Shown piece after piece: positions 14,005-17,578 of a stretch of DNA of 64,000 bases. Source of the stretch: Sandarakinorhabdus limnophila DSM 17366 (lineage in GTDB: Bacteria > Pseudomonadota > Alphaproteobacteria > Sphingomonadales > Sphingomonadaceae); NCBI RefSeq assembly GCF_000420765.1, contig NZ_ATVO01000005.1:248001-312000 (forward strand). Reading direction: 5' to 3'. The notes beneath the pieces are model-generated. The model saw only the letters and a program-made list of their open reading frames with translations, was not told where the DNA came from and did not search any database. Within the stretch, counting starts at the first letter, position 1, and each line of letters starts with the position of its first letter. The position numbers and the translations under genes were made by a program.

Positions 14005-14885
14005 GTGCTGTGCTGATTGACGGCAAGGCCCGCGCCGCCGCCCTGCGCGCCGAAGTGGCGACTGGTGTGGCCGCATTCGTGGCCGCCCATGGCCGCGCAC
14101 CGGGGCTCACCGTCGTGCTGGTTGGCGATGATCCGGCCAGCGCGGTCTATGTCGGCTCCAAGGGCAAGGCCACGCGCAAAGCCGGGATGATCTCGGGCGA
14201 GTATCGCCTGCCGGCCGATACAAGCGAGGCCGATCTGCTCGCCCTGGTGGCCACCTTGAACGCCGATCCTGCAGTGGATGGCATCCTTGTCCAGATGCCG
14301 TTGCCGAAACAGATCGACAGTGATCGCGTGATTGCCGCCATCGATCCGGCCAAGGATGTCGATGGCCTGCACCCGATCAGCACCGGCCTGCTGGTCAGTG
14401 GCCGCGACGGGTTGGTGCCGTGCACACCATCGGGCTGCATGCTGCTGATCAAGGAAGCATTTGGAGGCAGTTCGGGGGGCAACATCGCCGGCGCGGAAGC
14501 CGTGGTGATCGGCCGTTCGATCCTGGTCGGCAAGCCGATGGCCGCGCTGCTCACCAACGCCAGCGCCACCGTTACCGTTGCCCACAGCCGCACCCGCGAT
14601 CTGGCCGGCCACGTGGGGCGCGCCGATATCGTCGTGGCCGCTGTCGGCATCCCCGGCATGGTGAAAGGTGAATGGATCAAGCCCGGCGCCTGCGTGATCG
14701 ATGTCGGCATCAATCGCATCGCCTTGCCCGATGGCAAGACGCGCCTGGTGGGCGATGTCGATTTCGAAGGCGCCATGGATCGCGCCGGCTGGATCACCCC
14801 GGTGCCCGGCGGCGTTGGCCCGATGACCATCGCCTGCCTGCTGGCCAACACATTGAAGGCCGCGCGCGCCCGGGCTGGCGCGTGA
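14001..14885 (+). CDS. folD: Bifunctional methylenetetrahydrofolate dehydrogenase/cyclohydrolase
   Basis: Interconverts 5,10-methylene-, methenyl- and 10-formyl-tetrahydrofolate for purine and formyl-Met synthesis. The protein has 294 residues with a GTG start overlapping the yggT stop. Diagnostic motifs are [14 protein letters not shown] (catalytic Lys), [31 protein letters not shown], the NADP-binding [17 protein letters not shown] and the C-terminal [16 protein letters not shown]. Its own stop overlaps the next gene's start in the same GTGA fashion. Confidence 0.97.
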
Positions 14886-15556
14886 CCGATCTTTCGCTCA
14901 ACGGCCCGCTGGTTCAGCTGTTCATCTCGGCGTTTGTCACCCTGTTCGTGGTGATTGATCCGCCGGGCTGCGTGCCGATTTTCTCCAGCCTCACCGCCGG
15001 CACAACCCCCAAGCACCGCCGCGACATGGCGGTGCGGTCCAGCCTGATTGCGGCAGGCGTCCTGATCGCGTTTGCGTTGGGCGGCGAGGCGTTTCTGTCG
15101 GCGCTGGGCATCACCCTGCCCGCCTTCAAGATCGCTGGCGGCCTGATGGTGTTCGTGATTGCCATCGACATGGTGTTTGAAAAGCGCACTCAGCGCCGCG
15201 AAACCCGCGCCGAAGGTGTGAAATCCGCCGCCGATGCCGCTGGCAAGCCGCTGGAGGAAGAAGATATCTCGGTCTTCCCGATGGCCATTCCGATGCTGGC
15301 CGGGCCGGGATCGATCGCTTCGGTGATGCTGCTGTCGGCGCGCACCGATGGCGATGTCACCAAGGAAGCCGTGGTGCTGGGCGCGCTGGTCACCGTTCTG
15401 CTGCTCACCCTGCTCTGCCTGCTTGCAGCAGGGCCGATGATGAAGCTGATGGGCGCCAAGTTCGAAGGCGCGCTCACCCGTCTGCTGGGCGTGGTGCTGG
15501 CGGCGCTGGCGGCGCAGTTCGTGATCGACGGTATCAAGCAGAGCTTTGGGCTGTAA
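14882..15556 (+). CDS. MarC/UPF0056-family membrane protein
   Basis: A 224-residue inner-membrane protein with about six hydrophobic segments. It shows the family features [17 protein letters not shown] near the start, the [17 protein letters not shown] region and the second-half [20 protein letters not shown]. MarC proteins were once linked to multiple antibiotic resistance, but their transport role is unproven. The GTG start at 14882 overlaps the folD stop; no better downstream start retains the first membrane helix. It is followed after 70 bp by an SDR gene with its own SD. Confidence 0.92.
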
Positions 15557-15626
15557 CAGCCGGGATTGCTCGACAGGTTAAACGGCGCGGGCCAGACTGC
15601 CTCCTGCAACCACAGGAGTCTCGACC

Positions 15627-16292
15627 ATGCCCTCAGCTCTCATCATCGGTGCCTCGCGCGGCATCGGCCTTGGCCTCACGGCCGAACTGATCGGCCGCGG
15701 CTGGGACGTGGTGGCCACCCAGCGCAGTTCATCGCCCGCCCTGGCCGCGACCGGCGCGGATGTGGCAACTGTAGATATCGACGACAGCGAGACGGTGACG
15801 GCGCTGGCCGATAGCCTTGCCGGCAAGACCTTCGATCATGTGCTGATCAACGCTGGCATCACCGGTGGCCGCGCCGATACCGCCAGCACCGTGAGCCGTG
15901 ATGCCATGACGCAGTTGTTCTGGACCAACGCCATCGCCCCGATCAGCGCCGGCCGCATCCTGCTGCCACTGGTCAAGGAAGACGGCTCGATCGGCTTCAT
16001 GACCTCGATCCTGGGTTCGGTGGGCGGCCGCACGCACGGCTATGCCGAACTCTACAGCGCCTCGAAAGCGGCGCTCAACAGCCTGAGCCGGGGCTTTGCC
16101 GTGCAGGATGTCGGCAACCGCGCCGTGGCCGTGCTCAACCTGCACCCGGGCTGGGTGAAGACCGACATGGGCGGTGCCGATGCCGATATCGATGTCGCCA
16201 CCAGCGTGAGGGGCCTGGCCGATGTGATCGCAGCGGCGCACCCGCCCGGTCAGGTCTATGTGGACTACAAGGGCAGCAGCATCCCCTGGTAG
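15627..16292 (+). CDS. Short-chain dehydrogenase, C-factor-like
   Basis: A 221-residue SDR. The cofactor motif is at the very N-terminus (IIGASRGIGLGL), then VLINAGITGG, a catalytic Ser in GFMTSILGSVGG, Tyr and Lys in YSASKAALN, and HPGWVKTDMGG. The compact size and the late PGWVxTDMGG motif resemble the C-signal/YwfD-like SDR subgroup. Its substrate is unknown. SD AGGAG lies about 8 nt upstream of the ATG. A bidirectional terminator separates it from the PEP-CTERM gene. Confidence 0.88.
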   Translation: MPSALIIGASRGIGLGLTAELIGRGWDVVATQRSSSPALAATGADVATVDIDDSETVTALADSLAGKTFDHVLINAGITGGRADTASTVSRDAMTQLFWTNAIAPISAGRILLPLVKEDGSIGFMTSILGSVGGRTHGYAELYSASKAALNSLSRGFAVQDVGNRAVAVLNLHPGWVKTDMGGADADIDVATSVRGLADVIAAAHPPGQVYVDYKGSSIPW

Positions 16293-16308
16293 GCAGCAGA
16301 CAGACAAA

Positions 16309-16335
16309 GGGCGCCGCTCCGGTGGAGCGGCGCCC
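16309..16335. terminator. Bidirectional terminator between the SDR and PEP-CTERM genes
   Basis: A perfect 12-bp inverted repeat (GGGCGCCGCTCC with GGAGCGGCGCCC) around a 3-nt loop. Rightward it is followed by GTTCTTCT, leftward by TTTGTCTG, so it can serve both convergent genes. Confidence 0.82.
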
Positions 16336-16376
16336 GTTCTTCTCGACCAGGGCCGGAAGAACCGACCCTTGCCAGA

Positions 16377-17060
16377 TCAGGCAGCAACGCTGCTGCGACG
16401 ACGGCGGGCAGCGATGCCGACCATGCCGAAGCCGGCAATCAGCATCAGCCAGCTGGCCGGTTCCGGAACCGCGCTGTCGACCAGGATGTTATCGAGGATC
16501 GGACCGCGGGCATCGTTGTTACCCGTGGCGCTGAACACCAAGCTCAGCGTGCCCGAGCTGGTGGGCACGAACGACAGCACATAGCTCAGGAACGGACGGG
16601 TGCGGTTGATGCTCTCGCTGTAGGTACCGAAACCACTTACCACGCCGGTGGTGCCATAGCCAGTCTGGAAGCCCGACGAGGAGACGCTGGCGATGTTTTC
16701 GGGATCGGTGAAGCCCAGCGCGAAGTTGAAGATATCGGCCGGGGTGCCGGCGCGCGGGTTGCCGCTGAGGTGGAACGACACGGTGATCAGGCGACCGGCG
16801 TTGAAGTTGATTGGTGTGGACGTGATCGAACCGACGTTCGGCGAACCGACGAGATCGAGGCAGCGACCGGCCGCACCGGCACACAGCACGCCCGCCGTGC
16901 CGTTGCTGATGATGTCAACACCACCAGTGACGGTGAAGCCCGGCACGTTGGTGGTGTTGTTGGCCCGCGACGCCGAATCAAAATTTTGGCTGAAGATGGT
17001 CACGGCAGACGCCGGCATGGCCATCACGGCGGCAGCAGCAAGAGCAGTCAGGATACGCAT
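16377..17060 (-). CDS. PEP-CTERM sorting-domain protein
   Basis: A 227-residue exported protein. An N-terminal signal peptide (MRILTALAAAAVMAMPASA) precedes a beta-rich body (Asn/Ser/Gly-rich, FSQNFDSASRANNTTNVPGF) and the C-terminal VPEPASW motif, a hydrophobic helix (LMLIAGFGMVGIA) and an ARRRR tail. That tripartite C-terminus is the substrate signal for exosortase (EpsH/XrtA type), which cleaves the helix off and helps place the protein at the surface or in the biofilm matrix. The ATG at 17060 has SD GGGAGA. No exosortase gene is in this window. A sigma-54-type promoter lies just upstream (17091-17106). Confidence 0.93.
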   Translation of the reverse strand: MRILTALAAAAVMAMPASAVTIFSQNFDSASRANNTTNVPGFTVTGGVDIISNGTAGVLCAGAAGRCLDLVGSPNVGSITSTPINFNAGRLITVSFHLSGNPRAGTPADIFNFALGFTDPENIASVSSSGFQTGYGTTGVVSGFGTYSESINRTRPFLSYVLSFVPTSSGTLSLVFSATGNNDARGPILDNILVDSAVPEPASWLMLIAGFGMVGIAARRRRSSVAA

Positions 17061-17090
17061 CGAAATCTCCCTGTGATACGTCGCCTGCCC

Positions 17091-17106
17091 TGCAAACAAC
17101 ATGCCA
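17091..17106 (-). promoter_or_regulatory. Predicted sigma-54 (-24/-12) promoter for the PEP-CTERM gene
   Basis: Reading leftward the sequence is TGGCATGTTGTTTGCA, matching the RpoN consensus TGGCAYG-N4-TTGCW with exact GG-to-GC spacing. It predicts transcription starting near 17080, leaving a 20-nt leader that carries SD GGGAGA. Confidence 0.75.
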
Positions 17107-17149
17107 AAATGGATATTTCGAAATTTCTGTTTATTTTGCTGGGCGTTGA

Positions 17150-17168
17150 GACCATTGCACGAATGGTC
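17150..17168. promoter_or_regulatory. Candidate upstream activator site (dyad) for the sigma-54 promoter
   Basis: A perfect inverted repeat GACCATT-GCACG-AATGGTC is centred about 79 bp upstream of the predicted start, the usual zone for enhancer-binding activators of RpoN promoters. The AT-rich stretch between it and the promoter would suit DNA bending. A second smaller dyad, CATCC-AAAAC-GGATG, abuts it at 17169-17183. Confidence 0.5.
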
Positions 17169-17479
17169 CATCCAAAACGGATGTAAAGCAGGCCGACAAG
17201 GCGCGTGCCGCTGGCAAGCACCCGGTCCGGTCAGGTTTTCCCCTGACAAACAGCCATACTGACCGCCCCGCGCCTCGAATCGGCCCTGTCTGACGAGCCG
17301 GATTCATCATGCCTTAAAACTTCTGAAGTGAAAATTAGAAATTGGTTAACAATATTCGGTTCTGACCCTGCCAGAAGCCGTTGCCCATCTCAGTCCCCGT
17401 GTGTGTAAAGATTCCCGACACATGCGCATGCCCGCCAGCGAGCCGAACGAAAGCGATGAGAGCGGCGGCACCCCGGCCG

Positions 17480-17578
17480 TCAGGCGATTTCGGAACGACG
17501 GCGGTGGCCGGCCGCGCCGATGAGACCGAAGCCGGCAATGAGCCTGGCCCGGTTGGGCAGTTCAGCATTGGCTGTTGA
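17480..17578 (-). pseudogene. Decayed C-terminal fragment of a second PEP-CTERM gene
   Basis: This leftward frame reads ELPNRARLIAGFGLIGAA and then GHRRRSEIA followed by a stop. It lines up with the intact protein's EPASWLMLIAGFGMVGIA and ARRRR. The hydrophobic helix and Arg cluster are kept, but the PEP box is degraded (ELPN), and a TGA codon lies directly upstream with no coding body. It is most simply the truncated tail of a former tandem PEP-CTERM gene. Confidence 0.6.

Follow-up and report, generated by a model that had tools for sequence, protein, structure and literature searches.

A candidate PrsR box in helical phase with a predicted RpoN promoter of a PEP-CTERM gene in Sandarakinorhabdus limnophila DSM 17366

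A PEP-CTERM gene of Sandarakinorhabdus limnophila DSM 17366 is very probably expressed from an RpoN (sigma-54) promoter at positions 17091-17106 that is driven by PrsR from a helically phased box at 17182-17198, the 19-bp dyad between the two not being the PrsR site. Positions are those of the window, that is, the whole 64-kb stretch of DNA that was analyzed. Among the results of the analysis, the strict helical phasing of the box is the one of greatest interest. Computation established the motifs, how they recur, how they are conserved and how they are phased, as well as that rpoN and prsR are present. The features of the upstream region are as follows.

16377-17060, minus strand: gene for the 227-aa PEP-CTERM protein, over the cut-offs of NF035944, TIGR02595 and PF07589
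17066-17072, minus strand: Shine-Dalgarno-like AGGGAGA, read from the sequence, within the predicted 20-nt leader (17061-17080)
17091-17106, minus strand: sigma-54 (RpoN) -24/-12 promoter TGGCATGTTGTTTGCA, from a pattern search and six of six orthologous promoters
17150-17168, no strand assigned: 19-bp dyad GACCATT-N5-AATGGTC, GACCATTGCACGAATGGTC, an exact match and most likely a chance palindrome
17182-17198, minus strand: proximal candidate PrsR box TGTCGGCCTGCTTTACA, an exact match, 75 nt from the promoter and in helical phase with it
17404-17420, minus strand: distal candidate PrsR box TGTCGGGAATCTTTACA, an exact match, separated from the proximal box by 222 bp (21.1 turns)

The 227-aa protein, a predicted exported protein of the cell surface, scored above the cut-off of each of three families: 46.5 bits against NF035944 (cut-off 35), 22 bits against TIGR02595 (cut-off 16) and 33.1 bits against PF07589 (cut-off 20.7). 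Its C-terminal part is VPEPASWLMLIAGFGMVGIAARRRR, and a signal peptide was recognized by eye. The first-pass annotation had placed a sigma-54 promoter on this gene, and its spacing and coordinates were borne out by TGGCATGTTGTTTGCA, the sole match to TGGCAYGN4TTGCW within the window. By itself, this match is not significant: shuffled versions of the window contained a mean of 0.13 matches, and 13 of 100 contained at least one. The genome-wide search at other PEP-CTERM genes that the same annotation suggested yielded eight matches in the 2.61-Mb genome versus none for the reversed control, with four of the eight preceding PEPxxWA-CTERM genes. This genomic recurrence supports the reading of 17091-17106 as a promoter. 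With the -24 G at 17104, the -24/-12 geometry predicts a transcription start at approximately 17080, 20 nt ahead of the ATG (17060-17058). The proposed 20-nt leader with AGGGAGA as its Shine-Dalgarno element thus agrees with the sequence.

The proteins required for such a promoter are encoded in the genome. The first-pass annotation had made its reading depend on rpoN and prsR, and both were found: a single rpoN (382.5 bits; cut-off 277.35) and a single PrsR over the family cut-off (674.6 bits; cut-off 502.6). The latter contains Response_reg, Sigma54_activat and HTH_8 domains, corresponding to a receiver, a sigma-54 activation domain and a Fis-type HTH. Together with the occurrence of this type of promoter at 6 of the 23 PEPxxWA-CTERM genes that exceed the cut-off, these results support the assignment to sigma-54.

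A box, TGTCGG-N5-TTTACA, was noticed as common to the regions above the sigma-54 promoters. It occurs exactly seven times in the 2.61-Mb genome; allowing up to one mismatch, there were nine matches versus two for the reversed control. Downstream of six of the seven exact boxes there is a sigma-54 site, the spacers being 63, 74, 52, 76, 75 and 65 nt; in one case, the -12 element reads GTGC in place of TTGC. Five of the six precede PEPxxWA-CTERM genes and the other precedes the gene for a 41-aa predicted membrane protein. A variant, TGTAAA-N5-TTTACA, lies at 63 nt and precedes a sixth PEP-CTERM gene; in recognizable form, the arrangement is missing from the other 17 of the 23 genes. The seventh exact box is the distal one, above the same 227-aa PEP-CTERM gene. 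A sigma-54 site belonging to the distal box itself was considered and rejected, the best in-range match being 5 of 12. The two exact boxes of the window had been overlooked in the first-pass annotation, and shuffling yielded none in 100 trials. That annotation had proposed PrsR as the activator of this promoter and the dyad as its binding site. The first part stands, PrsR being the likely activator; the second does not, and TGTCGG-N5-TTTACA is the likely PrsR site on the basis of its recurrence.

We searched 199 genomes of the family for the strict box and promoter, allowing spacers of 48-78 nt. The search returned 83 sites in 31 genomes, and the reversed control returned none in all 199. All 83 spacers fell into three classes: 29 at 51-54 nt, 39 at 61-65 nt and 15 at 72-76 nt. 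At a period of 10.5 bp, the spacers gave R = 0.82, a value that none of 200,000 uniform draws equalled. To allow for the non-independence of sites from the same genome or genus, the test was also run with one site per genus (16 genera, 2000 draws). The median R was then 0.83 and the lowest 0.70, the latter reached by 0.012% of uniform draws. As an internal control, the distance from promoter to ORF start was unphased (R 0.08, n = 55).

The same pattern was seen across the phylum. Using a looser box, with 31-91 nt allowed between it and the promoter, 398 genomes yielded 38 sites in 23 genomes and one control match. All 38 spacers were at 40, 43-44, 51-54, 61-66, 73-75 or 82-85 nt only. Six of the sites were also in the family set, and 23, from 15 genomes, lay outside the family; for these 23, R was 0.79, again with no value as high in 200,000 draws. 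The best-fitting period was not exactly 10.5: it was 10.85 in the family, 10.7 outside it and 10.35 in the phylum set without the own genome. In the open-licence PMC papers searched, we found no report of helical phasing at PEP-CTERM promoters; one may exist in other papers or passages. A further observation concerns the spacers themselves, in which GTTAAC/TTAACC was overrepresented at no fixed position, 15 of the 83 containing GTTAAC versus 1.1 in shuffles. It is possibly the site of a bending protein or another regulator.

The conservation of the region was evaluated among 24 genomes of the genus, the own genome included. The 227-aa protein had some match in 15 of these at E 1e-10 or better, and full-length matches at 65-82% identity in six only, DSM 17366 and five others. 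The end of argG lies upstream in all six orthologous regions. The proximal box, the distal box and the sigma-54 site are kept in all six promoters, the distal box ending TTTACG in one, and the proximal spacers are 74-76 nt. The two boxes are 222, 221, 222, 219, 190 and 180 bp apart, and none of these distances departs from whole turns by more than 1.5 bp. When the five distinct values are taken, the probability of this occurring by chance was 0.03; it was 0.011 with 222/190/180 and 0.25 with 219/190/180. The phasing of the distal box is therefore statistically weak and suggestive only. Separately, a conserved block around GTTAACCAATTTCTAATTTTCA lies between the distal and proximal boxes (17329-17350, minus strand); of the six orthologous promoters, four show it clearly and one more shows it less well. 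One further feature was found farther upstream.

17480-17578, minus strand: remnant of a decayed PEP-CTERM gene, lying just after argG and ahead of the distal box, with a C-terminal match of 15.2 bits, below the cut-off

A regular-expression match to this fragment was obtained in DSM 17366 and in one other genome, G020, and in none of the four other orthologous regions.

The dyad behaves differently from the boxes. The first-pass annotation had described a perfect 19-bp dyad approximately 79 bp above the start, and it was confirmed as exact, with 79 bp between its centre and the predicted start. Taken as one specific 19-mer, the pattern is improbable, none of 100 shuffles containing it. The class as a whole is nevertheless common: for arms of 7 or more and spacers from 0 to 12, the window contains 146 position/spacer combinations that form a perfect dyad, and the spacer is exactly 5 in 12 of these. 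Such a dyad is therefore not remarkable by itself. In the genome, the dyad was found in one exact place, one more with one mismatch and six with two mismatches; the reversed control gave two matches on each strand. A terminator function was rejected, as a T-run is lacking on both sides.

Its position had made the dyad a plausible PrsR site. A centre 79 bp above the predicted start is in the right range, and the end of the 17-bp core of the dyad is separated from the promoter by 44 nt, which is in phase; a geometry such as that of the core is common for Fis-type regulators. However, the first-pass annotation had stated that its proposal would fail if other PEP-CTERM promoters lacked the dyad, and the exact dyad is absent from the other five sigma-54 PEP-CTERM promoters found in the genome. 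Moreover, three of the six orthologous promoters are without it, all of them keeping both TGTCGG boxes, and by eye its sequence is unlike the recurrent box. It is thus highly improbable that PrsR binds the dyad.

The three orthologous promoters that carry the dyad are those of DSM 17366, G010 and G020. Between DSM 17366 and G010, whose protein is 82% identical, the spacer has changed at 18 of its 75 bases. Two of these changes fall in the 5-nt loop of the dyad, and all 14 arm bases are the same (hypergeometric chance 0.014). These unchanged arms are the main evidence that the dyad might be the site of a second regulator modulating the promoter in part of the genus. Two other observations point in the same direction and add little: the dyad lies 31 bp (2.95 turns) from the centre of the proximal box, and perfect arm-7 dyads are commoner in the 83 family spacers than in shuffled ones (6 of 83; shuffled mean 1.4, largest of 300 shuffles 6), two of the six being this promoter and its G010 ortholog. 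Against a second regulator, the conservation comes from just two independent sequences, since the upstream half of G020 is almost identical to that of DSM 17366, and its dyad cannot be counted separately. In addition, no second promoter of the genome carries the dyad, and the other spacer dyads are unrelated to it in sequence. Nor was there any sign of a dyad regulon among 14 one-mismatch places across the 24 genomes of the genus. Thirteen of these places have a locus; stop-free stretches of 240-622 codons enclose 12 of them and a stretch of 97 the other (L147), a weak measure because the G010 copy of the dyad itself sits in a stop-free stretch of 299. A second-regulator site accordingly has a small, minority chance. 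Most likely, the dyad is an accidental palindrome without function, as the abundance of such dyads in the window, its patchy presence among the orthologs and the lack of a regulon suggest, although its arms are the same in G010 where the surroundings diverge.

The G020 promoter (L067) also has the appearance of a mosaic. It is nearly identical to DSM 17366 as far as the dyad and resembles G010 from there to the gene, the product of which is 78% identical to that of DSM 17366. This suggests recombination, with a putative breakpoint at or just past the dyad.

Regarding the input to PrsR, the first-pass annotation had pointed to prsK, the gene for the partner kinase. The gene is present beside prsR (526.7 bits), and its reading frame is interrupted.

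14251-16515 of locus L060 (contig C5, DSM 17366): prsK, with two in-frame stops, one TGA and one TAG

With these stops, the activating signal to PrsR may be broken or rerouted, and the input to PrsR in DSM 17366 is uncertain. The promoter could accordingly be a relic in this strain, PrsR no longer being activated and the gene being silent or constitutive. The interrupted prsK is the only such copy among 23 found in the 24 genus genomes, the other 22 (two of them partial matches) being without in-frame stops, and the C-terminal part of PrsK with HATPase_c forms a separate 348-aa open frame beginning with ATG. On the other hand, prsR is undamaged, as are the two boxes and the promoter, and the interruption could also reflect a sequencing error or a split but working kinase. 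We consider a relic possible but unlikely.

The link between the arrangement and PrsR was also evaluated across the family. The strict box and promoter occurred in 30 of 166 PrsR-positive genomes versus 1 of 33 PrsR-negative genomes (Fisher p = 0.033). The lone negative genome with the arrangement, G173, is 67% complete and was counted as PrsR-negative because it is absent from the list of positives. The remaining 136 PrsR-positive genomes are without the strict pattern. Considering these together with the 17 PEPxxWA-CTERM genes of DSM 17366 that lack the arrangement, PrsR must have other targets or looser sites. Among the 83 family sites, only approximately 55-57 have a PEP-CTERM-type gene downstream; the regular-expression count of 55 includes at least two likely wrong-frame matches (L095, L121) and has at least four visible misses (L094, L097, L119, L172). 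The box and sigma-54 promoter were also observed ahead of a recurrent 35-62-aa predicted single-helix membrane protein (C3:276795, which is L112 of the own genome, and L111, L114, L108, L207 and L182) with a pattern, judged by eye, of approximately hVWhhGLxxGxxAG. Five of these proteins were tried against NCBIfam, and none was over the cut-off of any family.

From these data, we infer PrsR binding to the box, RpoN dependence, the start site and a reason for the phasing. RNA polymerase with RpoN would transcribe the PEP-CTERM gene from 17091-17106. PrsR, with its receiver, AAA+ sigma-54 domain and Fis-type HTH, would bind the 17-bp box at 17182-17198, probably assisted by the second box at 17404-17420. 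If PrsR touches the polymerase from nearby, the box has to lie on the promoter's side of the helix; among spacer classes around 52, 63 and 74, the 75-nt spacer would then represent the longest. The dyad between box and promoter would be a chance palindrome or a secondary regulator's site. More broadly, it is probable that PrsR is a phase-locked, short-range activator throughout the Pseudomonadota, with its box approximately 4-8 turns out and always on the same face, that the conserved second box described here lies approximately 17-21 turns further on that face at a changing distance, and that the regulon includes the recurrent small membrane protein.

The predicted PrsR box, and not the palindrome, would thereby be central to PEP-CTERM control in this sphingomonad lineage. 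Enhancers of this class are usually regarded as distance-tolerant. The phasing provides a testable geometric rule for them: one helix face, in steps of approximately 10.5 bp. If true, the rule would sharpen the genome-wide prediction of exosortase-substrate promoters, and half-turn insertions are predicted to abolish activation.

The betaproteobacterium Aquincola tertiaricarbonis provides one comparison. Its pepA resembles the gene described here in being an RpoN-dependent PEP-CTERM gene with a TGGCAC -24 element and a predicted enhancer upstream (PMC9850573). In that system, the RpoN1 dependence and the start site of the -24/-12 promoter were measured, whereas here they are predicted, and a plasmid carrying prsK or prsK-prsR failed to restore flocculation of the mutant (PMC9850573). 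In Desulfovibrio vulgaris, DVUA0057 is likewise a PrsR-type response regulator that activates with sigma-54 and binds above PEP-CTERM genes (PMC3333781, PMC4641369). Its five predicted PEP-CTERM targets were enriched in DAP-chip (PMC3333781), although its predicted motif is shared with DVU0110 and not assignable to one alone, and some DAP-chip targets are without a site (PMC4641369). Binding was thus observed in vitro there and is predicted here, and the likeness concerns the type of regulator and its targets.

The closest comparison is with Haft et al. 2006 (PMC1569441), who predicted a motif 1 and a sigma-54 motif 2 before PEP-CTERM genes in 13 proteobacterial species and proposed a cognate PrsR. 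Their motif 1 is 17 nt long and ends TTTACA, with a spacer of mean 62.8 and SD 10.6 (published range 32-92), and 'motif 1 is sometimes repeated' (PMC1569441). Similarly, the box described here is 17 nt, ends TTTACA and is followed at 75 nt by a sigma-54 motif and a PEP-CTERM gene; it fits motif 1 by length, 3′ end, spacer and gene context. The first-pass annotation had supposed that the activator site was unmapped in this lineage. A matching motif had in fact been predicted in 2006, and that claim holds insofar as the stems Erythrobacter, Novosphingobium and Sphingo are absent from the text of PMC1569441. A term search of its main text, figures excluded, did not find phasing either. The present case differs in concerning a sphingomonad of the Sandarakinorhabdus lineage with two boxes 222 bp apart. 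Most likely, the promoter belongs to the RpoN/PrsR kind predicted in 2006 and has a further, conserved box at the distal position.
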